The notes below the pieces were generated by a model, which was not told where the DNA came from, made no database searches, and saw nothing but the letters and a program-made list of their open reading frames with translations. DNA of 38,303 bases from a virus: the IMG/VR virus record IMGVR_UViG_3300030380_005852, positions 1 through 38,303 of that record. One strand, 5' to 3'. A program made the translations under genes and the position numbers. Each line of letters begins with the position of its first letter. Positions within the stretch are counted from its first letter, which is position 1. This document shows, piece after piece, positions 2,998 to 38,303 of the stretch.

Positions 2998-2998
2998 A

Positions 2999-3850
2999 AT
3001 GGCTATAATAAATTGTGATGATAATGCATCAAGAGACTGTCTTGATGAATTAGTAAAGATAATAAACGACGATCTAACTGTTGCCTGTCAAATACCATTT
3101 ACAGTTCCTAAAAAGGAACTAGCTAGAATCATAAACAGAGCTAAAGACTATTTCTATAAAATATATGAAGATAGCGTAGAAGAAACTTATCTTGCACTTC
3201 CGAGAGCTGTATTTGCAACTGATGCGTTTATGAATGGTAATTTTGGTAAGGATGATGTTTTGAACAGTTCTGATATAACTTCACCTAGAGGTGTTGTTCC
3301 AATGCCAGAACAGGTTTATTCTATCAATAACGTTTTTGAAGTAAATAGATTTGCTGGTGAAGATGGCGGATTTGGGTCTCAAACATTCTCAGCCGGGGAC
3401 CGGGATTTCGCCATTGACAAGTTTGTTTATTCTGATGCGTATCGCGGAGCTGGTGCTGGAATAGCAAGTGAGAATTTAATGTACTATGTTATAAACGAAA
3501 AATTTATTGATAATGCTAGACAGGCTCTCCAACAACAAATAAGCTATTCCTATAATAGGCTAACTCATAAATTTAGATTTCTCGGAGAACTTCCTAAAAA
3601 CGAAGTTATATTTCAAGCATATATCAAAGTGCCTGATTGTGCATTATTTGCAGATGAGGCATTCCAGAGATATGTAATTGCAAGAGCTAAACAGCAATTA
3701 TCTAGAATACTTGGTACTTTCCAATTTAATTTACCTGGTAATATAACAATAAATTACGATTTAATACAATCAGAGGCTACTGATGAGATTGATAAGCTAA
3801 TAGAAGAAATTAAGTTAGATGACGGAGCTGATTGGTTTTTCACTGCATAA
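2999..3850 (+). CDS. Probable virion structural protein (neck/connector or baseplate region)
   Basis: The 283-residue soluble protein has no signal peptide, membrane segment or catalytic motif. Its C-terminal half has the pattern RYVIARAKQQLSRILGTF followed by NLPGNITINYDLI. I associate this pattern with uncharacterised structural proteins next to baseplate or neck genes in large T4-like marine phages, but I cannot name the T4 counterpart. The Gly-rich segment at about 115-160 is probably a loop. It starts one base after the amidoligase stop and lies just upstream of gp25 and gp6, which supports a tail or neck role. Family identity is uncertain. Confidence 0.6.
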   Translation: MAIINCDDNASRDCLDELVKIINDDLTVACQIPFTVPKKELARIINRAKDYFYKIYEDSVEETYLALPRAVFATDAFMNGNFGKDDVLNSSDITSPRGVVPMPEQVYSINNVFEVNRFAGEDGGFGSQTFSAGDRDFAIDKFVYSDAYRGAGAGIASENLMYYVINEKFIDNARQALQQQISYSYNRLTHKFRFLGELPKNEVIFQAYIKVPDCALFADEAFQRYVIARAKQQLSRILGTFQFNLPGNITINYDLIQSEATDEIDKLIEEIKLDDGADWFFTA

Positions 3851-26054: not shown

Positions 26055-26876
26055 ATGGCTGAGATTAGAACTAACATACCATTGACTCCTAGACAAGCTG
26101 TTACTTATAAAAAGTTAAAAAATTTGTCAACAGATTCTGAGCCATTGCCACAAGGTGATGGTATTATACGCATTTCTCCTTTTGATGATTACGTTTCTTT
26201 CACATTATACGAAAAAAGAGATGGCGAGAATGTTCCAATTGATTTGTCTAATGTAGGATCTTTATACATTAGCTTTATTGGTGAGAATGATGAAATAAGG
26301 ATTAAGAACTTTACTAATGCACAGGAGATAGACTATGCAGGTGGTCAGGTTGTATTTAGAATTGATACGGAATCAAGCAAACGAATACTAGAATTAGATA
26401 ACGATAACTTTTATATTTCTTCTGTTTATGAAGATCCAAATGGAGATTCAGACGAAAGTGTTCTATATACCGGTAAATTCCTATCAATTACAGATGCGGC
26501 AGAGCGATCTCTCACATCTCAAATCAATGAATTGAATTTACAATACACAAAAGAGATCGACACTTTACAGACAGAGAATGCTGCGTTGAGAAAGAAGGTA
26601 GAAGAGCTATCGCAAACTGTATCACAGCTAGAATCATCGCTTGGAAATTTAACTTCAGATAATAACCAGTTAGCTAACGAACTTAATGAGTTTGCAAAAA
26701 ATAGTCCAAACTTCAGGGCTGCTAAGTTACAAAAACAGGCTGCACAAAACGTGGCTATAGCTGATCAAAATAGAAAGCAAGCACAAACTGCCGGATTGTT
26801 GCAAGAACAGACTAAGGGTAAACCTACGAAGAAAAGAGCAGAAATTTTATCTAAAGGTCTAGAAAAATATTCATAA
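26055..26876 (+). CDS. Structural protein with beta N-domain and C-terminal coiled coil
   Basis: The 273-residue product has two parts. Residues about 40-140 form a beta-sandwich-like domain (DYVSFTLYEKRDG...VGSLYISFIGENDEIRIKNF) reminiscent of the Ig-like N-terminal domain of phage BppU-type upper baseplate proteins. Residues about 150-216 are a strong coiled coil (TLQTENAALRKKVEELSQTV), followed by a basic, Gln/Lys/Ala-rich tail. It follows the 469-aa gene with no gap and precedes the tail-tube-fold gene by three bases. A baseplate or fibre-connector role is plausible but unproved. Confidence 0.55.
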   Translation: MAEIRTNIPLTPRQAVTYKKLKNLSTDSEPLPQGDGIIRISPFDDYVSFTLYEKRDGENVPIDLSNVGSLYISFIGENDEIRIKNFTNAQEIDYAGGQVVFRIDTESSKRILELDNDNFYISSVYEDPNGDSDESVLYTGKFLSITDAAERSLTSQINELNLQYTKEIDTLQTENAALRKKVEELSQTVSQLESSLGNLTSDNNQLANELNEFAKNSPNFRAAKLQKQAAQNVAIADQNRKQAQTAGLLQEQTKGKPTKKRAEILSKGLEKYS

Positions 26877-26879
26877 TAG

Positions 26880-27437
26880 ATGTTTTTAAGTGCAAGAAAT
26901 AATCAATTTAAGTTTGATTTGCCAAGAAACTTTGTGCCACCAGATCTAGTTAAGAAGTATAAGCCATTTCTGAACAAGATTCCCGGCAGTTTAATTACTG
27001 AACCTATTGATGCAATAAATTATGGTATTCAGTCTATAAATTTGCCTGGACCTGCCTTTGATCCAGTTTCACAAATAGATTATCCAGGCTTTACTAGAAA
27101 ATTTAGAAGTGCAGCACCGACACAAGAGCTGTTTGACAAAACGATGACAATAACAATGCAATCGTTTGATGGCTTTTTAAATTATTGGTTAATGCTTGAG
27201 ATATTTCAGCATTACTATGGTCTTGGTGGTAATAGAAATCAATTCTTGCCAGAAGGTACTGGATTACAGATATATGATGGTGAGGGTAACATTTTTGTAA
27301 CTATTAAACTCAAGGAGATGATCATGTCAGGTATGTCAGCGCTTGACCTAAACTTTTCATCAAATACTATTGAGTTCCAGACCTTTGACGTAAACTTCTC
27401 ATATAACATATTTGAAGTTGAAGTTAATATCGCGTAA
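26880..27437 (+). CDS. Tail-tube-fold protein (gp19/gp54-like)
   Basis: The 185-residue protein fits the T4 tail-tube fold in length (T4 gp19 is 163) and pattern: an early strand with SINLPGPAF, a central TMTITMQSFDGFLNYWLMLE, then IKLKEMIMSGMSALDLNFSSNTIEFQTFDVNFSYNIFEVE at the C-terminus (marking extent). The final signature, N-x-I-x-x-F-x-V-x-F-x-Y-x-x-F, is what gp19-like proteins show. It could be the tube itself or a related tube-initiating cap (gp48/gp54). Being alone at the end of the baseplate block, without a sheath gene beside it in this window, it may be the initiator. Fold call fairly confident, exact role not. Confidence 0.55.
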   Translation: MFLSARNNQFKFDLPRNFVPPDLVKKYKPFLNKIPGSLITEPIDAINYGIQSINLPGPAFDPVSQIDYPGFTRKFRSAAPTQELFDKTMTITMQSFDGFLNYWLMLEIFQHYYGLGGNRNQFLPEGTGLQIYDGEGNIFVTIKLKEMIMSGMSALDLNFSSNTIEFQTFDVNFSYNIFEVEVNIA

Positions 27438-27448
27438 ATATATAAACT

Positions 27449-27793
27449 ATGAAAACATTTAAAGATTTTAAACAAGAAGGAACAGATAATCTCTTCGAAT
27501 CAGCTATGGAAGAGCAACTAACACCAGAACAAGAAAAAGCTATTGACGAAGTAGTTGATAGAATCTTAGAGGGTGATGCTAACGGTGAAGATTTAGAAAA
27601 GATAATGCAAGAAATAGTTAATGAAGGTATTATTGGATCTATATTTGGTGGCCTTACTGGTTTTGCACTTGGAAAAACAATTGGGAAAACAATTGCTAAA
27701 GTGCTTGGGATTAATAAGGGGATTTTATATGATATGCTAACAAGTAGACTAGTGGGTGCGGCCTTAGGTTCTGCTATTGGCAAAAAGATATAA
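27449..27793 (+). CDS. Glycine-zipper protein with capsid-targeting-like N-terminus
   Basis: The 114-residue product begins MKTFKDFKQE, which matches the T4 internal-protein capsid-targeting sequence MKTYQEFIAE at five of ten positions, with conservative changes at two more. Residues about 15-60 are acidic and helical. Residues about 65-114 are small-residue helices with repeated Gly/Ala spacing (GLTGFALGKTIGKTIAK, LVGAALGSAIGKKI), a glycine-zipper pattern found in membrane-associating proteins. No signal peptide is present. An internal head protein released at prohead maturation and ejected with the DNA would fit; a simple membrane protein is the alternative. It stands at the junction of the structural and replication blocks, after the leader TAAATATATAAACT. 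Confidence 0.6.
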   Translation: MKTFKDFKQEGTDNLFESAMEEQLTPEQEKAIDEVVDRILEGDANGEDLEKIMQEIVNEGIIGSIFGGLTGFALGKTIGKTIAKVLGINKGILYDMLTSRLVGAALGSAIGKKI

Positions 27794-27794
27794 T

Positions 27795-28442
27795 ATGCCA
27801 CAAACGATAGTCGGAATCGACTTTAGTTTAAATAGTCCAGGAATCTGTATAAAAGAAGAAGACTATTATACTTTTGTTTCCTTTTTCAATTTTGAGGGTA
27901 GATCCTTTGATGACAAACGAATACCAAAGAGATTTAATAATCATCTTGAATTGCAAAATATAGAAGGTGTGATCACAGTGCCTTATAATAGAGTAGTAAA
28001 ATCAAAAGATTACATTGAAAGAGAACGGCAGAAGATAGAAGATGCCCAGTCTATAGCTAATCATATAACATCATTTATTTGGAATTGGACGGGATCATCA
28101 GAAATAAAAATCTGTATAGAGGGATTCTCTTATGGTTCTAAAGGAAACTCTTTTATAGATATGGTCGGCTATAATTGGTTGCTTAGATCAGAAATAGTAA
28201 AAAGATTTGGATCAGAGAGTCTTCATATTTACACTCCTTCATTAGTTAAAAAAACTGCTGGAAAGGGGAACGCTAATAAAGAGTTTATGTTCGAGTCTTT
28301 TAAAAGCAACATATTAGAAGACGATCTTTTAGCGGACAATAATTTCTTTAAATATACATGTTCTAAGGAGAAATTAGAAAAGCCTTTGGATGACCTAATT
28401 GATTCTTATTTTATAGTAAAAACCCACGAGTTGAGCTCTTAG
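27795..28442 (+). CDS. RuvC-like Holliday junction resolvase
   Basis: I chose ATG 27795 (215 aa), one base after the previous stop, rather than the in-frame ATG at 27777 inside the upstream gene, because the RNase-H-fold strand starts immediately after it (MPQTIVGIDFSLNSPG). The catalytic acidic set of the RuvC family is visible: Asp9 in GIDFS, Glu109 in CIEGFSYG, and Asp199/Asp200 with Asp203 in PLDDLIDSY. The segment KKTAGKGNANKE at 152-163 is also typical. RuvC-type enzymes cut four-way junctions by a two-metal mechanism. T4 instead uses gp49 (endonuclease VII), so this lineage appears to use a different resolvase. It would act on recombination intermediates made by UvsY/UvsW-type pathways and before packaging. 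Confidence 0.8.
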   Translation: MPQTIVGIDFSLNSPGICIKEEDYYTFVSFFNFEGRSFDDKRIPKRFNNHLELQNIEGVITVPYNRVVKSKDYIERERQKIEDAQSIANHITSFIWNWTGSSEIKICIEGFSYGSKGNSFIDMVGYNWLLRSEIVKRFGSESLHIYTPSLVKKTAGKGNANKEFMFESFKSNILEDDLLADNNFFKYTCSKEKLEKPLDDLIDSYFIVKTHELSS

Positions 28443-28494
28443 TACTTAAAGATCTTATCTCAACGGAGAATCAGGTAATAGTTATAATGCACTT

Positions 28495-28794
28495 ATGGAA
28501 AAAAGTTTCAAAATAAATGCAATTTGTAGTAATATTTTTTTAAAAAAAGACAGATTGCCAGCACTTTCTAATTATGTTTATGCATACCAGAAAGAAGCAC
28601 ACCTTTATCCACCATACTCTGGAGAGGTTCTTTCATTAGGAGAAGATATAGATGATGAAGACCTAGAAGTTGGATGCAGAGTTACATTTAATGATATGGC
28701 TGGTGAAGAAATTCAATATGAAGGTGAGACATATCTGTTGATAAGATATCATAATGTTACGTCAGTGATTGGTAAAGATGTAAAAATTGCGTAA
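28495..28794 (+). CDS. GroES-like co-chaperonin (T4 gp31 analogue)
   Basis: The 99-residue protein follows the GroES pattern along its length: an N-terminal strand (AICSNIFLKKD), a disordered stretch at about 21-38 in the position of the GroEL-binding mobile loop, then SGEVLSLGEDI, LEVGCRVTFND, EIQYEGETYLLIRYHNVTSVI. These match GroES's GEVLAVG, VKVGDIVIFND and the C-terminal EEVLIMxExDILAIV. T4 gp31 replaces GroES so that host GroEL can fold the major capsid protein gp23; a similar need is likely here. The mobile loop lacks the usual GGIVL-type hydrophobic tripeptide and has NYVYAYQ instead, so GroEL contacts may differ. It sits between the resolvase and gene 32. Confidence 0.8.
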   Translation: MEKSFKINAICSNIFLKKDRLPALSNYVYAYQKEAHLYPPYSGEVLSLGEDIDDEDLEVGCRVTFNDMAGEEIQYEGETYLLIRYHNVTSVIGKDVKIA

Positions 28795-28798
28795 ACAT

Positions 28799-28870
28799 TT
28801 GCCAAACTAGATATATAATATGTGATATTAATTATCACGGAAGGCATTAAACAGGCAAGTATTTTGGCAA
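28799..28870 (+). promoter_or_regulatory. Structured leader and promoter-like site upstream of gene 32
   Basis: The 141-base gap before gene 32 contains a perfect 8-bp inverted repeat, TTGCCAAA (28799-28806) with TTTGGCAA (28863-28870), enclosing a second perfect hairpin, GTGATA (28822-28827) with TATCAC (28833-28838). A promoter-like GATATATAATA lies at 28810-28820. T4 gp32 represses its own translation by binding a leader pseudoknot and the unstructured A-rich region next to the start; an A-rich single-stranded stretch (AATTTAAAAAAGGCAATAAA) also lies directly before ATG 28936. The role is inferred. If transcription starts at 28820 or later, the left arm of the outer stem would not be in the message. 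Confidence 0.45.
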
Positions 28871-28935
28871 TTCCCGGGCAACCAGAAGGCAGGTTTGTTT
28901 ATGTCTATTTTTAACAATTTAAAAAAGGCAATAAA

Positions 28936-29856
28936 ATGGCAAACGAATTTGATATTTTTAATCTGTCTGCAAAGGATTTAAAAGCAGACGAAGGGACCAA
29001 GAAATCAGGGTCCGATCTCTATACTCCAAAAGCCGATCAAGGCAAGGATGGAGTTTATCGTGCATTGATACGATTTTTACCAAACTTAAAGAATCCACGC
29101 AAACCAATGGTGCGAAAGTACATTTATTGGTTAGACGATCCTACTACTGGAAAGGGATTCTTCGCAGATTCTCCTTCAACTGTCGGAGAACGATGCCCAG
29201 TTCAAGACATGTTTTTTAAACTACGTAACTCTGAGTCTGCTGTAGATAAGAAAATGTCTGAAGCACTCAAGCGTCGCGAAGTACATTACGGTTTAGTACA
29301 AATTGTAAAGGATCCACAGAATCCTGATCTAGAAGGGCAAATCAAGATCTTCAAGTTTGGTTACAAAATCAAAACTAAGATTGACGAGGAGTTAAATCCA
29401 CAGTTTGACGAACCTACACAAATTTTTGATCCATTTGAAGGTAAGAACTTTGAGTTAGTTATTTCTAAGAAAGGCGGATATCCTAGCTATGATAGCTGTA
29501 AGTTTCAAGGAACTAAATCAGCAATGACTCTTAACGGTGAAACTGTTACCGATACCGATGAATCTAGAAAGGCTATTGTAGATTATCTACAAGCTGGACC
29601 AGACCTATCTAATTTCGAATATCAACCATGGGACGAAGACTTGAGAGGGCGTGTTATGAATGTTCTATCACAATTCTCATCACCTGGCGAGTCTATTGGT
29701 ACTCTTACCACACAGACCGCACCTACTACAGCTTCCCCAGTTGCAGGCTCAGCCGCCACAAATTCAGCTCCCGAACCGGCACCTGCTGCTGAAGCAAAGC
29801 CTGAAGTTAAGGCTAACGATGATTTAGATGACTTCTTGAATGGTCTAGACCTCTAA
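28936..29856 (+). CDS. 32: Single-stranded DNA-binding protein, T4 gp32-like
   Basis: The 306-residue product (T4 gp32 is 301) has the gp32 layout: a short N-terminal segment, a core OB region about 35-235 (VYRALIRFLPN, KKMSEALKRREVHYGLVQIVKDPQNPDLEGQIKIFKFG, FEGKNFELVISKKGGYPSYDSCKF; ranges marked), then a Pro/Ala/Thr linker from about 250 and an acidic tail, NDDLDDFLNGLDL. The tail is where gp32 binds other replication proteins. The T4 zinc site (His, Cys, CPVC) is missing: here only CPVQ remains at 87-90. It protects ssDNA and organises replication and recombination with the primase, UvsY and UvsW genes downstream. The stop overlaps the primase start (TAATG). Confidence 0.9.
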   Translation: MANEFDIFNLSAKDLKADEGTKKSGSDLYTPKADQGKDGVYRALIRFLPNLKNPRKPMVRKYIYWLDDPTTGKGFFADSPSTVGERCPVQDMFFKLRNSESAVDKKMSEALKRREVHYGLVQIVKDPQNPDLEGQIKIFKFGYKIKTKIDEELNPQFDEPTQIFDPFEGKNFELVISKKGGYPSYDSCKFQGTKSAMTLNGETVTDTDESRKAIVDYLQAGPDLSNFEYQPWDEDLRGRVMNVLSQFSSPGESIGTLTTQTAPTTASPVAGSAATNSAPEPAPAAEAKPEVKANDDLDDFLNGLDL

Positions 29857-30914
29857 TGTCAGCTGATTCTAAAATACGAGCCCGGGTAATCGAAAAGGTT
29901 ACCCGGGTTATTCGTATGAATCATACTGAATATGAAAAGAAGCAAGCAGTACAAGGTCGGGATAGACTAAATTTTGCTTGTCCATATTGTGGAGATTCTA
30001 CGAATGATCCTCGAAAGAAAAGAGGAAACATATATTGGGCAGATCTATTTTTTCATTGTTACAACTGCAATCAGCATAAGAATGTAGATGAGTTTCTTCG
30101 TGATTTCAACGAAAGTCTTGAAGGTGAAGAACGTGTTACCCTTATAAATTCAATAAAAGAATCAAGAAAGAAGTTTAGTAAGATTGAAAACCTAGACTTT
30201 TATCTCTTTGAAAAGCTAGATGAACTAGCACTTGATTTTAATATAATATCAGATTTCTTTGGTTGCAATCCTATAAACGAAGTCTCTGCTAGGGCATATC
30301 CTTACCTAAAATCAAGATTGTTGCATCACAAGCTAAACAATTTTGGATATAACCCTAGAACACAAGACTTGTATGTTTTTAATTTCAACAGATCTGGTAA
30401 AATTATAGGATTTCAAGTAAGGTCTTTATCAGGAAGGGGCCCTAAATATAGGACATATAACATAGAAAAGATTTACGACAGAATCTCTAAGCCACTAAAT
30501 CTAGATGAAGAAGAGATAGCTGCACTAAATAAAATATCTATGATATTTGGCTCAATGGTTTCTAACTTTTCAGATACTCTAACTATCTTTGAAGGACCGA
30601 TTGATGCAATGTTTATGCGCAACTCCATAGGTCTGACTGGTGTTAAGAAAAAGGTCATGGATTTTGGAGAGATACAGAATGTAAGATATTTCTTTGATAG
30701 TGATATTGAAGGAAAGCGAAAGATGCTTGAAAAACTCAGAGAAGGAAAGACTGTCTTCATGTGGAAAAAGTTCTTTGATGATCATAGAATCAATCCAAAG
30801 ATTGTTAAGGATTTAAACGATTTAGTCAAATACGAATATAAGTATAAGAAAGGTTGTCTCAAAAACTTAGACGACTATTTTACAAACAACTCATTAGATG
30901 CAATATACATATGA
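29856..30914 (+). CDS. 61: DNA primase, T4 gp61-like
   Basis: The 352-residue protein has an N-terminal zinc ribbon with CPYC at 42-45 and HCYNC at 67-71, followed by a TOPRIM-type catalytic domain: Glu246 in IFEGPIDAMF and Asp281/Asp283 in FFDSDIEGKRK, plus DLNDLVKY near 319-326. T4 gp61 is 342 residues with the same order. It makes RNA primers for lagging-strand synthesis together with a replicative helicase (not in this window). The start ATG overlaps the gene 32 stop, so primase output is tied to gp32 translation. A strong hairpin lies inside codons 9-18. Confidence 0.88.
   Translation: MSADSKIRARVIEKVTRVIRMNHTEYEKKQAVQGRDRLNFACPYCGDSTNDPRKKRGNIYWADLFFHCYNCNQHKNVDEFLRDFNESLEGEERVTLINSIKESRKKFSKIENLDFYLFEKLDELALDFNIISDFFGCNPINEVSARAYPYLKSRLLHHKLNNFGYNPRTQDLYVFNFNRSGKIIGFQVRSLSGRGPKYRTYNIEKIYDRISKPLNLDEEEIAALNKISMIFGSMVSNFSDTLTIFEGPIDAMFMRNSIGLTGVKKKVMDFGEIQNVRYFFDSDIEGKRKMLEKLREGKTVFMWKKFFDDHRINPKIVKDLNDLVKYEYKYKKGCLKNLDDYFTNNSLDAIYI
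29881..29907 (+). promoter_or_regulatory. Strong hairpin inside the start of the primase gene
   Basis: CCCGGGTAATC at 29881-29891 pairs with GGTTACCCGGG at 29897-29907 (one G-U pair), leaving the loop GAAAA. Such an 11-bp, GC-rich stem is exceptional in this AT-rich genome. It begins 25 bases after the primase ATG, is translated in frame (residues 9-18), and is not followed by a T-run. It could slow ribosomes, lower primase output relative to gp32, or be an mRNA-processing site. Confidence 0.55.
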
Positions 30915-31117
30915 AAAAGTTTAGTGAATTTTTGTTAGAGACTAACGATTTTTATAATGAGTTTGAAGCCAGATCTAAAAGGCTTAAATTGTTTGTAGAC
31001 TTCAAACCATCTGAATACGATCACTCAAAAAAGAGTATTGAAATAGAGAAGCCAAAAAAGAAATTTAAGCCAACAACCTCAACATTTACAAAAAAATCTG
31101 ATAAAAGCATATTTTAA
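30911..31117 (+). CDS. Small basic protein with capsid-targeting-like N-terminus
   Basis: I use ATG 30911 (68 aa), which overlaps the primase stop (ATGA), not the earlier in-frame ATG at 30854 that would lie within the primase. The product starts MKKFSEFLLE, a close match to the T4 capsid-targeting sequence MKTYQEFIAE and ending in the L-x-E type of site cut by T4 prohead protease gp21. The rest is rich in Lys, Phe and Ser (KKKFKPTTSTFTKKSDKSIF), as expected for a small DNA-associated internal protein. Its place between primase and UvsY is where T4-like phages also carry small transcription or replication accessory proteins, so such a role is the alternative. Confidence 0.6.
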   Translation: MKKFSEFLLETNDFYNEFEARSKRLKLFVDFKPSEYDHSKKSIEIEKPKKKFKPTTSTFTKKSDKSIF

Positions 31118-31566
31118 TGGCATACGATGATCAACAGATAGCAAATGATAACCAACAGTTATCTCAACGTTTAGAAGAAGACCGAGCCCTTTGGGCAGAT
31201 AGAATAAAAGGAATAGTCAGAGACACTAAGCAAATGAATAAACTCGCTGATGTCCAGGTTAGCATGCTATCGTTTAGACAGATGCTGATAGACAAAACCG
31301 TAGAATTCAAAAATATTTTATATAGAAGAAAGTCTTCATGGGACAAATACTTCAAGGTAAAATATAGAGAATATTCGATAAATTATGATGTAAAACTTAA
31401 TTCATCGGAGAAGGCTTCATTTATAAAAGCAGATCTTAGTGCTTTAAAGACACAGATAAATATGATTGAAACCCATATTGAATATTATGGCGAATGCATA
31501 AGGACTTTAGACAATATGGCCTTTGCAATACGCAATAGAATAAAACTTAACGAAGACGATTTTTAA
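31117..31566 (+). CDS. uvsY: UvsY-like recombination mediator
   Basis: The 149-residue helical protein (T4 UvsY is 137) shows UvsY-like order: a charged N-terminal helix, a central K-rich region with SSWDKYFKVKYREYS, then SSEKASFIKADLSALKTQI, comparable to UvsY KSEMKTVLAADKDVL, and a final helix ending MAFAIRNRIKL, comparable to GFAIKHI. UvsY loads the UvsX recombinase onto gp32-covered ssDNA. In T4 uvsY is next to uvsW, and here only the endonuclease insertion separates them. Both ends overlap neighbours by one base (TAATG), first with the 68-aa gene and then with the truncated uvsW copy, which preserves the ancestral junction. Similarity is moderate, so the call rests on sequence and synteny together. 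Confidence 0.7.
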   Translation: MAYDDQQIANDNQQLSQRLEEDRALWADRIKGIVRDTKQMNKLADVQVSMLSFRQMLIDKTVEFKNILYRRKSSWDKYFKVKYREYSINYDVKLNSSEKASFIKADLSALKTQINMIETHIEYYGECIRTLDNMAFAIRNRIKLNEDDF

Positions 31567-31670
31567 TGCATCTGGAGTTAACTCAAGATAAGAGATTTTT
31601 ACAAATAAAGGCCTGTACTGAACTGGAATACGATCAGTTAAAGTCGAGTCTCACTAAAAGGATCTATTAA
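31566..31670 (+). pseudogene. Truncated duplicate of the uvsW 5' end (34 codons)
   Basis: Starting at the ATG that overlaps the uvsY stop, this 34-codon frame encodes MHLELTQDKRFLQIKACTEL and onward. It matches the first 33 residues of the full UvsW at 32447 except Q7 versus A7, then stops (TAT-TAA). At DNA level codons 1-32 differ at 10 of 96 bases; apart from codon 7 all changes are synonymous, and 29 consecutive bases near the break are identical. It is the original uvsW start, separated from its gene by the endonuclease insertion. It may still be translated as a short peptide through coupling to uvsY. Confidence 0.88.
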
Positions 31671-31688
31671 TTTACTAGAGGGTGGAAA

Positions 31689-31699
31689 GATATATAAAA
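31689..31699 (+). promoter_or_regulatory. GATATATAAAA directly before the endonuclease start
   Basis: The promoter-like core GATATATAAAA ends two bases before ATG 31701. If it were a -10 element the transcript would begin inside the coding region, so a standard promoter here is unlikely. The motif may instead act as an A/T-rich leader, or be chance. Confidence 0.15.
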
Positions 31700-31700
31700 C

Positions 31701-32462
31701 ATGTATATCTACAAAGTAACAAATAAAGCAACAGGTAAAATATATGTTGGTCAATCAAGAAGAAAGGATCCTTCGTATTTAGGAAGCGGAGTCCATATTA
31801 AACTGGCAGTTGAAAAATATGGTAACCACGAATTTTCTAAGGAATATATTGATGAAGCAACAAATCAGGACGAACTAGATGAAAAGGAGAGGTATTGGAT
31901 AAAGAAATTAAAAGCCCAAGATAAAAGTATTGGTTACAATATAGCTGATGGTGGTTGGAATCACTTTACAATTAACGAAGAGATTAAGCAAAAAATATCT
32001 AATACTTTAAAGAAGAAATATAAGAATGGTAATAATAGAACTGGTACAACTTTAACAGATGCACACAAAAAGGCGATAGGTAAAGCTAGTAGGGGTAGAT
32101 TACATTCTGAAGAATCTAAAAGGAGAATGAGCGAAGCACACACTGGTAAAAAACATTCTGAAGAATCTAAAAGTAAGATGAGTGAAGCACATACTGGTAA
32201 AAAACTCAGTGAATCCCATAAAGCTAAAATTTCAAAAGGATTAGTTGGTAGACCAGTTTCTGAAGAAACCAAAAAACTATTAAGCAAAAAGAACTTAAAT
32301 AAAACTCAAAAAAACTCAAAGAGAGTGAAGGCGAAAAACAAAATAACTGGCGAAGAATTTCTTTTTAATAACATTAGTCAGGCTGCACGTGAACTTAACA
32401 CGTATAGGCATTATATCAAAAATAACTGCGTTAAAAATTACGACATATGCATCTTGAACTAA
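31701..32462 (+). CDS. GIY-YIG homing endonuclease
   Basis: The 253-residue product has a GIY-YIG nuclease domain at about 1-85: YIY at 2-4, YVG at 15-17, YLGSG at 26-30, and Glu in EKERYWI near 61-67. Residues about 130-200 are NUMOD3-type DNA-binding repeats (HSEESKRRMSEAHTGKK and variants), and the C-terminus (EFLFNNISQAARELNTY) looks like a NUMOD1-type helix-turn-helix. Free-standing enzymes of this kind (the T4 Seg family) cut related phage genomes and spread their own gene. It lies between a truncated and an intact copy of uvsW. Its last codons (ICILN-stop) are formed by the uvsW start region, overlapping by 16 bases. Unlike other genes here, its leader has a purine-rich GAGGGTGGAAAG about 10-20 bases before ATG. 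Confidence 0.9.
   Translation: MYIYKVTNKATGKIYVGQSRRKDPSYLGSGVHIKLAVEKYGNHEFSKEYIDEATNQDELDEKERYWIKKLKAQDKSIGYNIADGGWNHFTINEEIKQKISNTLKKKYKNGNNRTGTTLTDAHKKAIGKASRGRLHSEESKRRMSEAHTGKKHSEESKSKMSEAHTGKKLSESHKAKISKGLVGRPVSEETKKLLSKKNLNKTQKNSKRVKAKNKITGEEFLFNNISQAARELNTYRHYIKNNCVKNYDICILN
32103..32204 (+). repeat. Two 51-bp tandem repeats in the endonuclease gene
   Basis: The units 32103-32153 and 32154-32204 differ at 5 of 51 bases and each encode HSEESK-x-x-MSEAHTGKK. Two more divergent units follow. They correspond to repeated NUMOD3-type DNA-contacting modules and show recent duplication within the gene. Confidence 0.8.
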
Positions 32463-33952
32463 CTGCAGATAAAAGATTTTTACAAATAAAGGCCTGCACT
32501 GAACTAGAATATGATCAGTTAAAGTCGAGTCTCACTAAAAGAATTGATGGTTGGAGATTTCATCCGTTAGTTAAAAGACGTGTGTGGGATGGAACTATAA
32601 CATACGTAAAGGGAAATAAGATACCGGCCGGACTTTGGAAAGAGGTAATCGATATTTGCCGAGAATATTCATTTGAAGTGAAGCTTGACGGTGTTACAAG
32701 AATATTTGATACAGATATAAATGAAACCGACTTTGTCGCATGGGTTGATGAATTCTTTGAAGGGCACGAACTTAGTCCTAGAGACTATCAAATAGATGCT
32801 GCATATAAGATATTAAAATACAGAAGATGTTTAGCCGAACTTGCAACATCAGCAGGTAAGACGCTAATATCATTTATGGTCATTGGATATCTTATGGAGG
32901 TGCTAAATAAACAACGCATTCTGATGGTAGTGCCAAATGTCAGTTTAGTAGTACAAGCAACTGGCGATTTTGAAGAATATAACAATGACAAGCTATCGCT
33001 AAGAATCCAACAAATTTATTCAGGAGCAAAGCTAAGGAAGAGTTCAAACATAGTTGTAGGAACTTACCAATCTTTGGCAAAAAAGGACAAGGCTTATTTT
33101 GAACAGTTTGATGTAATACTAATCGATGAGACACACAAAGCCAAAGCTGCGTCTATTCAGAAAATTATGGATAAATGTTGGCATTGTGACTATAGGTTTG
33201 GCTTAACAGGAACTGTTCCAAAGAGGGGCACTGTAGACAGATTGACTCTTATGTCGGCAATGGGACCATTAGTATGTCAGGTTAAGGCAAATTACTTGCA
33301 GGACGAAGGCTACATAGCAAATTGTAATGTTGTTCAATATCATTTAGATTATGCATCAGAAGAACAAAAGGAATCTTTTTCCTTCTTATCAAAAAGACCT
33401 GAAGACAGAAAAAACCTTTTTGAGCTTGAGAAAAACTTTATAAACCAAAATGATCTGAGGCTTGATTTCGTTTGCAATAAAATAGCAGAGTGTGAAAATA
33501 ACTCCTTAGTGTTATTCCATAGAATTGCATATGGCGAAAAAATATACAAACGCTTAAGAGAAACTACAGATAAAATGGTTTATTATGTAGATGGATCTAT
33601 TAATGCTGAGTTAAGAGAAGAATTTAAGTCTAGAATGGAACGAGGAGATGGTGTTATAATTGTAGCCAGTTATGGAACTTTCTCAACAGGTATTTCTATT
33701 AAAAAGATTCACAACATATATTTCACAGAGAGTTTTAAAAGCGAAGTTATCATTAGACAATCTATCGGAAGAGGCTTAAGAAAACACTCAAGTAAGGATA
33801 CAGTTTACATTCATGACTTTATAGATGACTTTAGATATAAAAATGCATCAGACGATTGGATTAACTATATCTTTAGACATGGGATTGAAAGAAGAAAAAT
33901 ATATAAAGAGGAGAAATTCCCATTTGAAATCAAAAATGTTAGATTATTTTAA
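32447..33952 (+). CDS. uvsW: UvsW-like SF2 DNA helicase
   Basis: The product is 501 residues (T4 UvsW is 503). An N-terminal domain (MHLELTADKRFLQIKACTEL, RFHPLVKRRVWDGTITYV) typical of UvsW precedes the helicase core: Q-motif region LSPRDYQIDAAY near 109-120, Walker A ATSAGKTL at 133-140, DETH at 227-230, GLTGTVPKRG near 252-261, and motif VI IIRQSIGRGLRKH. T4 UvsW unwinds branched DNA, R-loops and D-loops, controls the switch from origin to recombination-dependent replication, and works with UvsY. All key residues are intact, so this is the functional copy. The start lies within the last 16 bases of the endonuclease gene, so it is probably coupled to it, or uses its own leader. Confidence 0.92.
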   Translation: MHLELTADKRFLQIKACTELEYDQLKSSLTKRIDGWRFHPLVKRRVWDGTITYVKGNKIPAGLWKEVIDICREYSFEVKLDGVTRIFDTDINETDFVAWVDEFFEGHELSPRDYQIDAAYKILKYRRCLAELATSAGKTLISFMVIGYLMEVLNKQRILMVVPNVSLVVQATGDFEEYNNDKLSLRIQQIYSGAKLRKSSNIVVGTYQSLAKKDKAYFEQFDVILIDETHKAKAASIQKIMDKCWHCDYRFGLTGTVPKRGTVDRLTLMSAMGPLVCQVKANYLQDEGYIANCNVVQYHLDYASEEQKESFSFLSKRPEDRKNLFELEKNFINQNDLRLDFVCNKIAECENNSLVLFHRIAYGEKIYKRLRETTDKMVYYVDGSINAELREEFKSRMERGDGVIIVASYGTFSTGISIKKIHNIYFTESFKSEVIIRQSIGRGLRKHSSKDTVYIHDFIDDFRYKNASDDWINYIFRHGIERRKIYKEEKFPFEIKNVRLF

Positions 33953-33955
33953 TCT

Positions 33956-33966
33956 GATATATAAAA
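33956..33966 (+). promoter_or_regulatory. Putative promoter element before the acidic-protein gene
   Basis: GATATATAAAA lies four bases after the uvsW stop and 33 bases before ATG 33999, with the same core as the sites at 502 and 28810. This is the point where the replication block gives way to the putative internal-head block, so a separate (perhaps late) promoter makes sense. The region is AT-only, which weakens the case. Confidence 0.4.
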
Positions 33967-33998
33967 ATATATTACGAAACTCTAAAAAATAAAGTAAA

Positions 33999-35219
33999 AT
34001 GCCACGTATTAAGAAATTTTCAGAACTTCTAACAGAGTCTAGATCTACAGACGTACAGGAAGTTGTTAAAAAATTAGGATTTAGTTCTTTAGAAGAAATC
34101 AAAAAAGAAAGAGCAATGCTAGCCAAGCTAGAAGCTTTGCTAAAATCTATTCCCCAGTCAAATCAAATAGCAGAGGATGATGCCGATGAAATTGAAGACG
34201 AAGTTGTAAAAATGGGTACTCCAAAATCTTTAGAAGGTGCTGATGGAGAAAAAGAAGAAGATGGTGAAACAGGTGTCGAGGGTGACGTTGAAGAGGCAGA
34301 GGAATCAGAAGAGGTTGAAGCTGAAGTATCAGTAGAAGAACCTGCTGAGGAAGAAGTTGAAGAAGCTGCCGAAGAAGATGAGGCTGAAGATGAGGCTTCT
34401 AAAATTGCCGATGAGGTTGTAGCTAAAGGCGAACCTAAAGAACAACCAGAAGGTGAGGGTGATGAAGTAGTAACTAAAGATCAGGAAATCGAGACAGAAG
34501 TCGAAGAAGAACCTGCTGATGCTGAAGCTGGCACTGATGTTCCTAAGAAAAGAATTAAGTCGTTTGCAGAATTCGTGGCTGAAAAAGAGGTTACAGTTAA
34601 TAAGAATGTAAACTATCACGACGACGAAGAAGAGAAGGAAGATTACGGAATGCCAGTGGCTGCATCCGCTGATCCAATGTCTGAAGGAATGTATGAGGAT
34701 GATGACGATGATGACGATGATGATCACGACGATGATGATCATGAAGATCGCGAAGAGCATGAGGGCAAAGAGGATGAGAAGAAAGGTGAAGAACTAGAAG
34801 ACGAAGGAGATGAGGATGTTGATTCAGAAGATGATGCCGAAAAAGAAGTTCATTACAAAGACGCTGTAAAGGATGACGAAAAGGAAAAAGAAGATCTTGA
34901 AAAGGATATAGAATACGACGAAGAAGAGGAGGACGATGCTAAAGAGGATGAAGAAAAGAAAAATGAATCTCTAACAGTATCATTTGCTAAATTTGTCGCT
35001 GAAGCTTATGAAGCAGAAGAAACTGAAGAAGAAGAAGTTGAAGAGGAAGAAGTTGAAGAGGAAGATGCTAAAAACGAAAAATATGACAGAGTCGTATTAG
35101 GTGGAAACAAAGGAGACAAATCTAAAACTCATTCAGGTGAAGATTACGAGGACGAGGATGACAAGAAAGAAGAAGGCGAAGAGCCTTTAGCAGATGAGTC
35201 TGAAGTAAATGAAAAATAA
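33999..35219 (+). CDS. Highly acidic protein with three capsid-targeting-like motifs
   Basis: Glu and Asp dominate this 406-residue protein, including a Asp/His tract at about 233-250. Three segments break the acidic pattern and resemble one another and the T4 capsid-targeting sequence: KKFSELLTE at residues 5-13, IKSFAEFVAE at 186-195 and TVSFAKFVAE at 326-335. Each ends in an x-x-E site of the T4 prohead-protease type, so the protein could be cut into three acidic peptides. T4 prohead core proteins (gp67, gp68, scaffold gp22) are also acidic and cleaved. No globular domain is evident, so most of the chain is probably disordered. A prohead core/scaffold or packaged DNA-mimic role is inferred. 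Confidence 0.75.
   Translation: MPRIKKFSELLTESRSTDVQEVVKKLGFSSLEEIKKERAMLAKLEALLKSIPQSNQIAEDDADEIEDEVVKMGTPKSLEGADGEKEEDGETGVEGDVEEAEESEEVEAEVSVEEPAEEEVEEAAEEDEAEDEASKIADEVVAKGEPKEQPEGEGDEVVTKDQEIETEVEEEPADAEAGTDVPKKRIKSFAEFVAEKEVTVNKNVNYHDDEEEKEDYGMPVAASADPMSEGMYEDDDDDDDDDHDDDDHEDREEHEGKEDEKKGEELEDEGDEDVDSEDDAEKEVHYKDAVKDDEKEKEDLEKDIEYDEEEEDDAKEDEEKKNESLTVSFAKFVAEAYEAEETEEEEVEEEEVEEEDAKNEKYDRVVLGGNKGDKSKTHSGEDYEDEDDKKEEGEEPLADESEVNEK
34690..34760 (+). repeat. GAT/GAC/GAA low-complexity tract
   Basis: A run of GAT and GAC codons with interspersed CAC/CAT encodes the Asp/His-rich part of the acidic protein. Such tracts are prone to length change by slippage and produce long spurious open frames on the other strand. 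Confidence 0.7.
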
Positions 35220-35228
35220 AATCTAAAA

Positions 35229-35873
35229 ATGAAAAACCTCAAATCATTTGGTCAATTTTTAAACGAGCAAACATCAACTGAAGGTTTGTCAGAAAGAGCA
35301 AAGCCAGTTAAGAAAAGAGACTGGGACAAAGCTGATGATGAGCAAAGAGAAGAATGGCTGCTTCAGGCATTTTCTGATCCAGATGATGCTACGGAATTTA
35401 TTGAAGTAGATTGGAAAGACCTGCCACCGACCGCAACTCAGAATATGGTGATGGAAGGCACTAGAGCCCAGGTTGGATTAATCGATCCTACTGGCCGAAT
35501 CAGAAGTGTATATTTGCATAGTGACGGTGGCCCGGATTCTGCTGGTAAAGTTTTGAAAAACAACTATTCTGATACTACTAAAGTCATCAAGTTATTAGAT
35601 TTAGGAACTATGGGGATTTCAAGCCTTGCACCTTCTATGAGGGGCGGTAAAGGCCATGATTTTTATAATAGAAAGCCTGGAGAGACTGTTTTTTATGGAA
35701 GAGATCGGGGCGAGACAGGAAGACCTATGATGACTCTAGGAAACGAAAAAAAGATGAAACAATTCATGGGCGATGCTCTAGGTGACTCAGATTTTCTTTA
35801 TCTTTGGGATTCTAGAGACGGGCAATGGTTAGTTGCAGATGCAAGAACCAAAAAATTACAACCACTTAAATAA
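35229..35873 (+). CDS. Unknown protein with capsid-targeting-like N-terminus
   Basis: The 214-residue product starts MKNLKSFGQFLNE, which again has the F-x-x-F/L-L-x-E pattern seen in the neighbouring genes. After it comes an acidic, Trp-containing helical region (RDWDKADDEQREEWLLQAF), then a Gly-rich globular domain (MRGGKGHDFYNRKPGETVFYG...LYLWDSRDGQWLVADART) without a known catalytic motif. If the N-terminus is a capsid-targeting sequence, the rest would be an internal head protein released by cleavage at residue 13. It lies 9 bases after the acidic gene and 9 bases before the next small gene. Confidence 0.65.
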   Translation: MKNLKSFGQFLNEQTSTEGLSERAKPVKKRDWDKADDEQREEWLLQAFSDPDDATEFIEVDWKDLPPTATQNMVMEGTRAQVGLIDPTGRIRSVYLHSDGGPDSAGKVLKNNYSDTTKVIKLLDLGTMGISSLAPSMRGGKGHDFYNRKPGETVFYGRDRGETGRPMMTLGNEKKMKQFMGDALGDSDFLYLWDSRDGQWLVADARTKKLQPLK

Positions 35874-35882
35874 TTTATAAAA

Positions 35883-36101
35883 ATGGCAAGACTATTAGGA
35901 TTTAACGATTTTCTTAATGAAAATGAGAAAATAGAGTCAGAAGCTGATTTTAAAGCATATGCTGAAGAAGTTTTAAAGGCAGCACATCCTGATGATTACG
36001 ATCAGGAAATTGCTGATAAAACAATTGCAGATTTGACACAAAAATACAATGGCGATTACGGTGCAATGATCGGAGCACTTACAAGTGGCCTAGGTAAGTA
36101 A
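35883..36101 (+). CDS. Small acidic protein with capsid-targeting-like N-terminus
   Basis: The 72-residue product begins MARLLGFNDFLNE, ending in the same L-N-E as its neighbour. The remainder is a compact helical sequence (EADFKAYAEEVLKAAHPDDY...IADLTQKYNGDYGAMIGAL) with no known motif. Size and charge suit a small internal head protein such as T4 IPI-IPIII or gp67/gp68. It is six bases upstream of the ligase-like gene. Confidence 0.65.
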   Translation: MARLLGFNDFLNENEKIESEADFKAYAEEVLKAAHPDDYDQEIADKTIADLTQKYNGDYGAMIGALTSGLGK

Positions 36102-36106
36102 TACTT

Positions 36107-37378
36107 ATGAAATACATCCAATTATTTGAAAATTGGCTGGCCTCAAAAAGCCAGCCTTTTTTGTTTGAGGGCGGAGCAGCTGGGCATATGATGCATCCGT
36201 TTGACGACAAGGAATTGACATTTGGCGATTTTAAAAACATGATAGACTATGGTCTACAGGGTCGTCTTGACTTTGAAGAAGAGCCGACAGAAAAAACAGA
36301 TGGCCAAAACGTTTTTGCTACAATCCAAGATGGCAAAGTAAAATTTGCTAGAAATAAGGGAGATCTAAAAAGACCGATGTCTTTAGGTCAATTTACTCAA
36401 AAATTTGCAAACCATCCATCAGAGCAAGTTAGAGACACGTTTACATTTGCCGCAAACGATTTAGCAAGCATGTTAACAAGATTGCCTAAAGATGTGCAAG
36501 ATAAAGTTTTTAACAACGGTAAGGATTTTATGAATATGGAGTTAATATATTCACTAAATCCAAATGTTATTAATTACGATAAGGACGTAATAGAATTTCA
36601 CGGCATTAAGAAGACTGATGGAAATGGAAATATAATTGGTGAAGATACTAAGGCAGCTAGTGAAATAGCACAAATACTAAAAAGACTAGAAGCCAATGTA
36701 GGTAAAACATTTTCTGTGATTCCACCAACTAGAATTAAGTTGATGAAAGATGTAAATTATGCAGCTAACAAAGCTGACTTGGTAAACAGAGTTGAATCAT
36801 TAAGAAAAAAATATAACCTAAAAGACACAGATCCTGTTTCTAAATACCATGAGCAATGGTGGATGGATCTAATAAATAAAGACTTTCCAGATTTAGACGA
36901 TGATGTTAAATTAGGTTTAATGCAAAGGTGGGCATATGGTGACAAGAAATCTTTGGACATGAGATCCCTGAAATCTAGGGTATCTCCTGTAGACTTTGAA
37001 GCAATTAAAAATTTAGATAAAACTGATTTGCGAAGAAAGCAAAAAGAAAACATCGGCCCGTTTGAAGACATTTTTCTAAACCTAGGTGCTCGAATAATCT
37101 CTAATGCTGAAGATTTCTTAACAGCGAATCCAACTGAAGAAGCAAAAAGGCTCAGATCATCTATTAGTGCTGCCGCTAAAAATCTCAGAAAGGGTGGCAG
37201 TGAGCAGCAAATTGCAAGATTAGAAGATGAGCTAGCTAGGTTAGAAAAGTTAGGAGGCATAGAAATGGTTTATCCTACAGAAGGAATTGTTTTTAAATAC
37301 AAAGGTAAAACATATAAGCTTACTGGAAGCTTTGCGGCTATAAACCAATTATTAGGAATACTAAGATACGGAAGGTAA
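36107..37378 (+). CDS. Nucleotidyltransferase/polynucleotide-ligase-like protein
   Basis: The 423-residue protein shows the ordered motifs of the covalent nucleotidyltransferase superfamily (RNA and DNA ligases, capping enzymes): motif I Lys63 in EKTDGQ, Arg82 in KFARNKG, motif III Glu145 in MNMELIYSL, motif IV EGIVFKY at 392-398, and motif V YKLTG at 403-407. All key residues are present. About 240 residues, partly helical and charged, lie between motifs III and IV, and the chain ends 16 residues after motif V, so no OB domain follows. The N-terminus (MKYIQLFENWLAS, then FLFEGGAAGHMMHPFD) resembles the capsid-targeting motif, but the first F-x-x-W-L segment lacks the Glu; LFE follows at 19-21. 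Substrate unknown. A terminator-like hairpin lies in codons 10-20. Confidence 0.75.
   Translation: MKYIQLFENWLASKSQPFLFEGGAAGHMMHPFDDKELTFGDFKNMIDYGLQGRLDFEEEPTEKTDGQNVFATIQDGKVKFARNKGDLKRPMSLGQFTQKFANHPSEQVRDTFTFAANDLASMLTRLPKDVQDKVFNNGKDFMNMELIYSLNPNVINYDKDVIEFHGIKKTDGNGNIIGEDTKAASEIAQILKRLEANVGKTFSVIPPTRIKLMKDVNYAANKADLVNRVESLRKKYNLKDTDPVSKYHEQWWMDLINKDFPDLDDDVKLGLMQRWAYGDKKSLDMRSLKSRVSPVDFEAIKNLDKTDLRRKQKENIGPFEDIFLNLGARIISNAEDFLTANPTEEAKRLRSSISAAAKNLRKGGSEQQIARLEDELARLEKLGGIEMVYPTEGIVFKYKGKTYKLTGSFAAINQLLGILRYGR
36135..36166 (+). terminator. Intrinsic-terminator-like hairpin within the ligase-like gene
   Basis: GGCTGGC (36135-36141) pairs perfectly with GCCAGCC (36150-36156) around an 8-base loop CTCAAAAA, followed at once by TTTTTTGTTT. 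This is the standard layout of an intrinsic terminator and the only clear one in the window. It falls 28 bases after the ligase-like ATG, in frame, and about 35 bases after the stop of the preceding small gene, so it may end or attenuate the 33999-36101 transcript. Confidence 0.7.
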
Positions 37379-37390
37379 ATAAATAAAGTA

Positions 37391-38303
37391 ATGAAAGAAT
37401 TAAATCAAGTTTATAAGGATAAAGGTCGTGAATTTGTTAATAATCTTTTAGATGATTATCTTATCGTTACCGAAAAATTGTCAGGATCTAGTTTCTCTTT
37501 TGAAAGAGATGGTTTTGACTTAGTATTCTATAAGGGCAATGGTGCAAGACGAATCAATCAGGTCGATAGAACTATGATGATGTACTACGAAGGCCCTATT
37601 AATTATTTAGAAAGGGCAACTGCTGATATCCTTGTAACATTACCTGAAAACTGGATTTTCTGCTTTCAGTATTTTGTGCATAATGAACCAGGAGTTGTAA
37701 AATACGACGAACTACCAAAAAATAATTTAGTACTAACACATATTTTAGTCAAGGGGCTTGGTGGCAAAATTGCTAAAGTTATAGATGACCCTAGAGTAAT
37801 AAACGATTGGGCTAATGTTTTAGATGTAACTGCAATTAGGCCATTTTTCATGGGGAGACTAAGTGAAGAACAAAAGAAAAAGGTAAGAGAGTTTGTAGCT
37901 TTGCCAGTAGATGATCAGGAGGCTGCGTTTGGAACTGATTCATTTGTACAATACTTATTAAGCATTTTAGACAACGATGTAAATAGAACTACATTACAGA
38001 CAAGTCTAAGAAAACCAATTGATTCATTAGTATTCAAATTCGTTAAGCCAGGAGGAGAGACTGCGTTCTCTGCAAAGGTTGTAGATCCATACACTAGGCA
38101 CATAATGAAGAGCAAAGCTCCTGTTGATCTAAAAAGAATGCCAAAGGATATAAATGAAATATTATTATTAGATTTCTTAGCGTTTGTAGAAGAGCGAGGC
38201 ATAAAGTCTGCAGATGTAATGAGCTCAGAGCCTGATAAGAGATATGTTGAGCTTATCTCCTCATTATTCAATGATTATGTAAAAAATCGTGGTGAATCTA
38301 TCA
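37391..38303 (+). CDS. Second nucleotidyltransferase/ligase-like protein, 3'-truncated
   Basis: The frame is open from ATG 37391 to the window end (304 codons visible, no stop). It has an RNA-ligase-like arrangement: motif I Lys29 in TEKLSGSS, basic FYKGNGARR at about 46-54, a motif-III-like NWIFCFQYF at 87-95, motif-IV-like IDSLVFKF at 210-217, and a motif V Lys229 in FSAKVVDP. Motif IV has Asp-Ser where Glu-Gly is usual and motif III has Gln where Glu is usual, so metal binding or activity may be altered. It follows the first ligase-like gene by 12 bases, suggesting a tandem pair. Lack of the C-terminus prevents naming it; T4-like RNA ligases and phage ligase-fold proteins of unknown role are the candidates. 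Confidence 0.65.
   Translation, partial: MKELNQVYKDKGREFVNNLLDDYLIVTEKLSGSSFSFERDGFDLVFYKGNGARRINQVDRTMMMYYEGPINYLERATADILVTLPENWIFCFQYFVHNEPGVVKYDELPKNNLVLTHILVKGLGGKIAKVIDDPRVINDWANVLDVTAIRPFFMGRLSEEQKKKVREFVALPVDDQEAAFGTDSFVQYLLSILDNDVNRTTLQTSLRKPIDSLVFKFVKPGGETAFSAKVVDPYTRHIMKSKAPVDLKRMPKDINEILLLDFLAFVEERGIKSADVMSSEPDKRYVELISSLFNDYVKNRGESI

Follow-up and report, generated by a model that had tools for sequence, protein, structure and literature searches.

A 38,303-nucleotide stretch of viral DNA (hereafter the window; bases 1-38303 of the 54,010-base virus record IMGVR_UViG_3300030380_005852) contains six genes whose products begin with a short segment, in one case degenerate, that resembles the capsid-targeting sequence (CTS) of the internal proteins of phage T4. 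As the best explanation of the data taken together, we consider it very probable that these N-terminal tags are CTSs of the T4 kind, which dock proteins on a core made of repeat scaffold and are cut by a protease, with part of the cargo being injected. The motif, its enrichment, its agreement with the T4 CTS, a protease in a near-identical contig, the scaffold repeats and the presence of the tag on unlinked bodies were all observed directly. With T4 as precedent, we infer that tagged proteins dock by mimicking a repeat and are then cleaved, packaged and injected; the function of each cargo is likewise inferred.

Tag carriers and chance expectation

The first-pass annotation had listed five N-terminal motifs (27449, 30911, 33999, 35229 and 35883), a weaker one at 36107 and two further copies within an acidic protein, and had stated that the other genes do not start in this way. 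All of these were recovered. The five motifs fit [FY]xx[FL]xxE and are located at ATG starts of open frames, the degenerate copy at 36107 lacks the Glu, and 25 of the 31 genes called in the window are not carriers. The features are as follows (protein lengths in amino acids, aa).

27449..27793, + strand: 114-aa protein; N-terminal CTS MKTFKDFKQE (motif 27458-27478); hydrophobic, glycine-rich stretch at the C-terminus
30911..31117, + strand: 68-aa protein in the primase-uvsY interval; N-terminal CTS MKKFSEFLLE (motif 30920-30940)
33999..35219, + strand: very acidic 406-aa protein (169 D+E, 48 K+R); N-terminal CTS MPRIKKFSELLTE and two internal copies
34563..34583, + strand: internal motif FAEFVAE, residues 189-195 of the acidic protein 33999
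34983..35003, + strand: internal motif FAKFVAE, residues 329-335 of the acidic protein 33999
35229..35873, + strand: 214-aa protein; N-terminal CTS MKNLKSFGQFLNE (motif 35247-35267); PHROG 1987, to which PHROG assigns no function
35883..36101, + strand: 72-aa protein; CTS MARLLGFNDFLNE (motif 35901-35921)
36107..37378, + strand: 423-aa protein; degenerate CTS MKYIQLFENWLAS without Glu; KxDG at residues 63-66

Window motifs start at residue 4 or 7; in the acidic protein, FSELLTE at residue 7 is present besides the internal copies. The fit to the CTS positions (two aromatics, an aliphatic residue and Glu) is full for 30911, 35229 and 35883. The acidic protein has Leu in place of the second aromatic, and in 36107 Ser replaces Glu and Trp occupies the second aromatic position.

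Among the 49 genes called in the 54-kb record (G000), a plain regular expression matched five, with 0.84 expected from internal windows and 1.09 from shuffles. Used as a detector, this expression did not separate from chance in T4 (6/257, ∼4 expected) or Microcystis Mel-JY01 (3/210, 3 expected), and one match (FSFDDLNKE, the start of a RecA-like protein) is likely false in our reading. Due to this weakness, profiles were used. A profile seeded with the regular expression and built from other phages, with repeated N-termini merged, found 6/49 genes at 10 bits or above (0.10 expected). Five are inside the window and the sixth starts at 40264, beyond it.

A second motif was derived without a seed by expectation maximization (EM) from seven related contigs, whose N-termini numbered 1103 once repeated first-14 segments had been merged. 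It reads [IV]-K-[LTS]-[FY]-E-[EDQ]-[FY]-[ILV]-[NS]-E, with column frequencies of 0.85 (F/Y), 0.93 (F/Y), 0.69 (I/V/L) and 0.68 (E), and 72% of the site weight begins at the third residue after Met. The log-likelihood was 954; four shuffled sets gave 161-188 and internal segments 317. Six of the 49 genes scored at least 6 bits (0.15 expected), every one of them in the window, 36107 among them; the next-best gene of the record scored 1.7 bits. The enrichment of the motif exceeds chance.

Because the training contigs hold orthologues of some window carriers, T4 is the only test free of shared ancestry. With the start Met scored zero, the EM motif ranked gp61.1, IPIII, IPII and IPI as the top four of 257 T4 open reading frames (ORFs), and since this motif was learned without T4, we conclude that the clade motif matches the T4 CTS. 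In a first T4 scan, using the 10-column motif with Met excluded, no internal protein was among the nine ORFs listed, because the scoring window begins one residue too late for the T4 tags. When the regex-seeded profile was used instead, IPI, IPII, IPIII, gp61.1 and the scaffold protein gp22 were the sole T4 ORFs at 10 bits or above. The CTS of IPI, IPII and IPIII is from Mullaney and Black 1996, as cited in excerpts of PMC9026906 and PMC5694885; in the former excerpts, mutations show that residues 4 and 7 matter for targeting and residues 8 and 10 for processing. The likeness to the T4 internal-protein start that had been noticed in the window thus extends to the residues important in mutants. 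With the unseeded motif, gp61.1 (NC_000866 18966-19130, 54 aa, MKTFKEFIKE) outscores IPI-III. This best-scoring T4 carrier adjoins the primase gene, as 30911 does, and the tag predicts that it is an internal head protein.

An alignment of starts in related phages had been proposed as a check, and up to 87 related loci were compared (acidic-protein matches above E 1e-6 were dropped). The N-terminal regular expression was absent from orthologues of seven neighbouring genes: RuvC-like (0/80), GroES-like (0/52), gp32 (0/81), primase (0/82), UvsY (0/82), UvsW (0/82) and tail tube (0/79). In the 27449 family it is present in 78/79 orthologues (41/42 distinct N-termini), and these relatives mostly obey the L/I-x-E cleavage rule from which 27449 itself (KQE) deviates. 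Homologues of 27449 are also present in Lak phages; the one inspected, a Lak-C1 protein, does not carry the tag in this form (F-type). The motif is found in 51/81 orthologues of 30911 (19/34 distinct N-termini). Most listed relatives of the acidic protein keep internal copies of the FEDFIKE or FSNFVTE type, and at the protein level 33999 had no match among named phages. For 35229, with 16 distant homologues (25-29% identity), the motif is in register in eight; seven keep the two aromatics with Glu out of register, and one match is an internal start.

For 36107, the regular expression matched 34/87 orthologues, one of them (G015) on a doubtful start. The closer relatives mostly begin MKHIKLFEQWLADK or similar, with Asp replacing the P1 Glu. 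Excerpts of PMC9026906 report that T4 IPIII with Asp at P1 retains targeting and is blocked in processing. Due to this precedent, targeting without cleavage may apply to 36107 and to the majority of its closer relatives, and a packaged, uncut protein is predicted for this branch.

The scale of tagging is largest in related contig G017, where 28/245 genes are tagged at 15 bits or above and 0.08 are expected. At this threshold the counts are 13/215 for G021, 12/150 for G022, 11/127 for G015, 11/200 for G019, 10/141 for G016 and 10/156 for G023 (expected counts across the tagged relatives are 0.00-0.19). Low counts were obtained for G013 (3/207), G001 (2/89), G000 (1/49) and T4 (3/257). MA9V-2 has 0/260, and two genes at 12 bits or above versus 0.09 expected. 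In total, 629 tagged proteins form 154 body families without BLAST links (single linkage, E 1e-4, 35 aligned residues), of which 140 have a strong tag. Note that proteins below 50 aa were skipped in one step, and that L219-L298 contributed ATG-started ORFs of at least 50 aa and at least 15 bits, not called genes. A strict DNA pattern of the tag was found in 92 stretches in IMG/VR; bacterial and archaeal genomes (genome_contigs, 257 Gb) contained no exact match.

Protease, repeat scaffold and forms of the tag

The window contains T4-type genes for a baseplate wedge protein, tail tube, gp32-type single-strand binding protein, primase, UvsY and UvsW-type helicase. An 88.7-kb IMG/VR contig (G001) overlaps the window's record at 99.8% identity and extends 51 kb beyond it. 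A search of the 54-kb record for the S77 protease family gave no match; the gp21-type protease that the first-pass annotation called for was found in G001 (S77 match, E 2e-15), where the His, Ser and Asp columns that we take to be the T4 gp21 catalytic triad align. The portal gene, a 556-residue protease-scaffold ORF and the major capsid protein gene are consecutive in this contig (portal and capsid are named by our reading). LINE and NLNE are kept in the capsid protein in 30/30 distinct N-termini shown. Among 15 long F-type contigs, 14 picked through a tagged gene and one (G049) through an Acb1-like gene that scores as untagged, S77 was found in 12, in each case with a long open frame (578-747 residues). 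Three large contigs that bear the tag (G035, G036 and G037, 234-236 kb) each have a second, short S77-like match in an open frame of 132 aa.

Throughout the clade, the gp21 protease and a scaffold with 14-residue repeats are encoded as a single ORF, for example at L092 10544-12214. In the best 80 of 194 such loci, found with a fused query, the ORF is 557-637 residues long in 79 and short (347 aa) in one. The scaffold part holds 8-12 copies (median 10) of [FY]xx[FYHLI][LIVAM]xE, a motif whose background in other proteins is 0.073 per 100 aa. Neighbouring copies are exactly 14 residues apart in 585 pairs, the next most frequent spacing being 28 residues (28 pairs). The pattern itself demands Glu; independently of the pattern, the Glu of nine successive repeats is invariant or nearly so at positions 243-355 of alignment A5 (21 sequences). 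Because the scaffold fused to the protease holds 8-12 motifs like the tag, mostly 14 residues apart, the sequences suggest that the tag is one scaffold repeat, which would dock cargo and then be cut.

A profile made from the scaffold only ranked IPIII first, IPII second and gp61.1 third of 257 T4 ORFs, and 30911 first and 33999 second of the 49 genes of the window's record. In G017, 11/245 genes were above the 99% null, versus 2.5 expected. An AlphaFold model of the protease-scaffold fusion was too poor for use (mean pLDDT 50, repeats <50).

Fusion as such is also seen in Tenacibaculum phage PTm1, whose ‘prohead core scaffolding protein and protease’ has an S77 domain followed by scaffold in one ORF. 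Unlike the clade's protein it has no copy of the scaffold motif, and PTm1 has no clear set of tagged proteins. The single ORF for protease and scaffold likewise distinguishes the clade from the T4 prohead core.

The tag has a second, L-type form. The DNA pattern for MIKLxDLLKE occurs in at least 120 stretches in IMG/VR, and 80 of these (L391-L470) yielded 81 proteins in 32 body families without BLAST links. T4 gp24, a gp21 substrate, begins MAKINELLRE and resembles this form. S77 was found in 9/11 long L-type contigs, all nine as stand-alone frames of 202-229 residues. A homologous body exists among F-type proteins for 19/81 L-type proteins, the best with 51% identity over 137 residues. Fifteen of the 19 shared bodies belong to one P-loop family, kinase-like in our reading (24-38% identity), whose F-type member is without the P1 Glu. 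In the cultured phages HTVC008M and Melnitz, which have relatives of an L-type cargo protein, MIKLxDLLKE is absent from that protein. The tag may thus take lineage-specific forms, MKxIKLFEEFxNE with a fused protease-scaffold and MIKLxDLLKE with a stand-alone protease, with some related bodies carrying different forms in different lineages. Tag form and protease architecture are not strictly tied, since T4 itself joins a stand-alone gp21 with F-type internal proteins.

Bodies behind the tag

A set of 142 tagged representatives (A2: 67 new-family references, 74 of 81 earlier representatives and L105:2558-3637) gave few matches, to 17 Pfam and 18 PHROG families at E <= 0.001; most bodies match nothing. 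At this cut-off the matches include ATP-grasp (two), GNAT, HD, PAP2 and Acb1 (one each), DUF5661 and DUF5824. A tail tube PHROG among the tagged proteins is probably G023 52148 (EM 14.5), a false tag match, and one tagged protein resembled KptA/Tpt1 too weakly (E 0.023) for the match to be used.

The Acb1-like protein (G017 2478-3020; Pfam Acb1, E 1.7e-7, 31.5 bits against a cut-off of 27) has predicted activity only. Acb1 is an anti-CBASS protein (PF23474; PHROG 755, named ‘RNA ligase’), and T4 gene 57B, annotated ‘RNA ligase’, is presumably T4 Acb1. Acb1-like 2H phosphoesterases occur with and without the tag (L096 2478-3020; L161 16071-16625; L311-L390). The best 80 of 120 loci were analyzed, and the clade proteins share HxT..HxT with Acb1 in 80/80. 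They differ from it in that 38/80 carry the head tag at 9 bits or above; the ratio of 38 tagged to 42 untagged should not be considered a natural frequency, because one of the two peptide patterns used to find them was taken from the tag.

For the untagged proteins, every in-frame start was inspected. In 12/42, an ATG gives M[SN][DE]KQTYDYGC at the body, nine of them without another in-frame start upstream, and the first residue of these 12 aligns with the tag Glu, that is, at the predicted cut. Another 15 begin with an L-type segment (e.g. MIKLLDLLKE). The starts of the others are of the MQ[EK]LAG type (six), MG[IL]NENK type (four), MKLSKLAK type (two) and MKFIEKF type (one), or are MKHIKDY/MKLIKDY (L333, L337), which look like degenerate tags.

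The predicted structure of 36107 has a pLDDT of 75, with the tag region <50. Its KTDG at residues 63-66 is invariant in 30 sequences and sits at the beginning of the structurally aligned range. In VIA-align, the 17 best rows all had titles naming RNA, tRNA or DNA ligases (Z 4.8-6.0, rated middling by the tool) and were aligned over 89-114 residues with a root-mean-square deviation of 3.2-4.8 Å. By our arithmetic from the low range ends, the lysine named in the title maps to residue 63 of 36107 for T4 Rnl1 (K99) and Palaeococcus (K92A), and to residue 61 for Naegleria K170M. Foldseek gave no match at E <= 0.001, and two chains at E 0.014 in a PDB sequence search were judged to be chance. A fold of the ATP-dependent nucleic-acid ligase type is plausible from the model, with activity predicted only.

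Not all window carriers need be cargo. With its three motifs and very acidic composition, 33999 is most likely a prohead-core protein that would be cut into pieces. T4 gp67 is acidic, and 33999 (169 D+E of 406, three cleavage-type motifs) is like T4 gp22, gp67 and gp68, as is the clade scaffold with its many P1 Glu residues. By this analogy 33999 reads as comparable in kind to gp67 or gp68, from which it differs in that its gene directly follows the UvsW-type helicase gene instead of being between the portal and protease genes. It matched no Pfam or PHROG family, and membership in gp67/gp68 is not claimed. For 27449 and 30911, both conserved, a role as core or cargo protein is proposed, perhaps core rather than injected cargo; 35229, 35883 and 36107 are more likely cargo. 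Of the original proposal of a packaged cargo set, the CTS reading is therefore upheld by the T4 agreement and the S77 protease, and the part to be adjusted is its extension to 33999, and perhaps 27449 and 30911, which look more core-like than like injected cargo.

Two other genes of the region were noted. A GroES-like co-chaperonin gene adjoins gp32 at 28495-28794 (PF00166, E 8e-7), and a GIY-YIG/NUMOD3 homing endonuclease gene is in the uvsY-uvsW interval at 31701-32462. The latter is a recent gain or loss, because it is missing in the 99.8% identical G001. A nucleotide search of 25000-38303 against named phages gave no match.

Proposed mechanism, alternatives and meaning

In the mechanism that we propose, the tag would dock a protein onto the scaffold core of the prohead, probably as a short amphipathic helix whose two aromatics are at positions i and i+3. 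The core would be formed by the gp21 protease fused to the 14-residue-repeat scaffold, in which most repeats have an [FY]xx[FYH][LIV]xE unit, and the tag, which looks like a single scaffold repeat, would act as adaptor. As the head matures, the protease would cut after the Glu of repeats and tags, so that the scaffold is broken up and cargo is freed inside the head. Part of the cargo would then enter the next host along with the DNA.

Several results weigh against this mechanism or limit it. S77 was found in only 9/23 related contigs, many of which are fragments. The scaffold-only profile is weak for the KLFEEF form, without excess in G022 (1/150) or G019 (1/200); above the 99% null it finds two T4 proteins (IPIII, IPII) versus 2.6 expected, and its best match in G017 and G015 is not a tag carrier. 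Due to the poor fusion model, repeat mimicry has no structural support. The window's own species has modest tags (one gene at 15 bits or above). The strict N-terminal motif is present in only 2/58 orthologues of the acidic protein, although IKKFS is usually retained, and in 0/85 ORFs homologous to 35883, because in relatives the body of 35883 mostly makes up the C-terminal domain of a longer protein, often an acidic one (56/85 are also matched by the acidic protein). As for cleavage read from the motif, 36107 has no P1 Glu, and 27449 breaks the L/I-x-E rule with Lys at the aliphatic position, where the T4 protease requires Leu or Ile. Finally, two phages with S77 have no clear tag excess, PTm1 (0/292 at 15 bits or above; 1/292 at 9 bits or above, 0.42 expected) and Mel-JY01 (0/210 at 9 bits or above), so the tag is no general feature of gp21 phages.

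All carriers could instead be prohead-core or assembly proteins in which the motif is only a protease cleavage site, with no delivery to the host. The motif does occur in the scaffold and twice inside the acidic protein, and the conservation of 27449, 30911 and 33999 among the related loci is what one would expect of core proteins. We nevertheless consider this unlikely: bodies vary between phages (140 families, including Acb1, GNAT, HD, PAP2 and ATP-grasp) and would hardly be needed by an assembly core, and T4 proteins with such a tag are injected, according to excerpts of PMC12373910.

It is less probable still, and by some way, that the tag merely looks like a CTS and sends proteins elsewhere in the infected cell, such as the membrane or a replication site. 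Sequence cannot reveal location, and PTm1 and Mel-JY01 have gp21 without clear tags; such a destination would however leave unaccounted for a de novo motif that recovers the T4 internal proteins, a scaffold full of a like motif with P1 Glu, and a strict pattern with no exact match in the cellular genomes. Least probable is a translated DNA or RNA signal (promoter, start site or leader) or a copied gene 5′ end, which tandem runs of many tagged genes (e.g. G017 66248-69808) might indicate, since the hydrophobic and Glu positions are conserved across diverged phages and T4, and in 16 KLFEEF-type G017 tags variation at synonymous codons is close to that predicted from codon usage (0.62 identical versus 0.56) and upstream DNA has no conservation by eye, which argues for selection on the tag at the protein level.

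Targeting, docking and cleavage by a T4-kind CTS is therefore retained as our explanation. A stronger version is offered tentatively, as something that may or may not hold: the tag would be a single 14-residue scaffold repeat, and any protein that gains it would co-assemble with the core and be freed by the same protease. This modular effector loading would place dozens of rapidly swapped cargoes in each virion, including an anti-CBASS enzyme and possibly a ligase, for delivery at time zero.

Like T4 IPI-III, the clade's proteins have a 10-13 residue N-terminal segment with two aromatics three apart, an aliphatic residue and P1 Glu on mutually unrelated bodies, and a gp21-type protease is present. 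They differ in number (28 tagged genes in one clade contig versus three known internal proteins in T4), in the commonest tag (MKxIKLFEEFxNE), in enzyme-like cargo families and in the fusion of protease to repeat scaffold. An uncultured clade thus apparently puts a known T4 mechanism to use at extraordinary scale. The idea itself has precedent in T-even phages; for the scale, the scaffold link or a tagged Acb1, none was found in the open literature searched. The parts of this literature covered, including those of PMC3012670, PMC5694885, PMC12373910, PMC9026906 and PMC9391042, describe neither this clade nor an Acb1 with the tag nor a scaffold repeat that bears a CTS. In the excerpts on CTS residues, the contact partner of the tag in T4 is not named; T4 internal proteins are reported in excerpted text to co-purify with gp22.

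A scaffold built of a tag-like unit gives a concrete, testable answer to what the tag contacts. The tag is also a sequence label for predicted virion cargo, covering more than 100 protein families in uncultured phages, most without a family match. These tagged families are candidates for injected host-takeover or counter-defence proteins, and one of them resembles the anti-defence protein Acb1.

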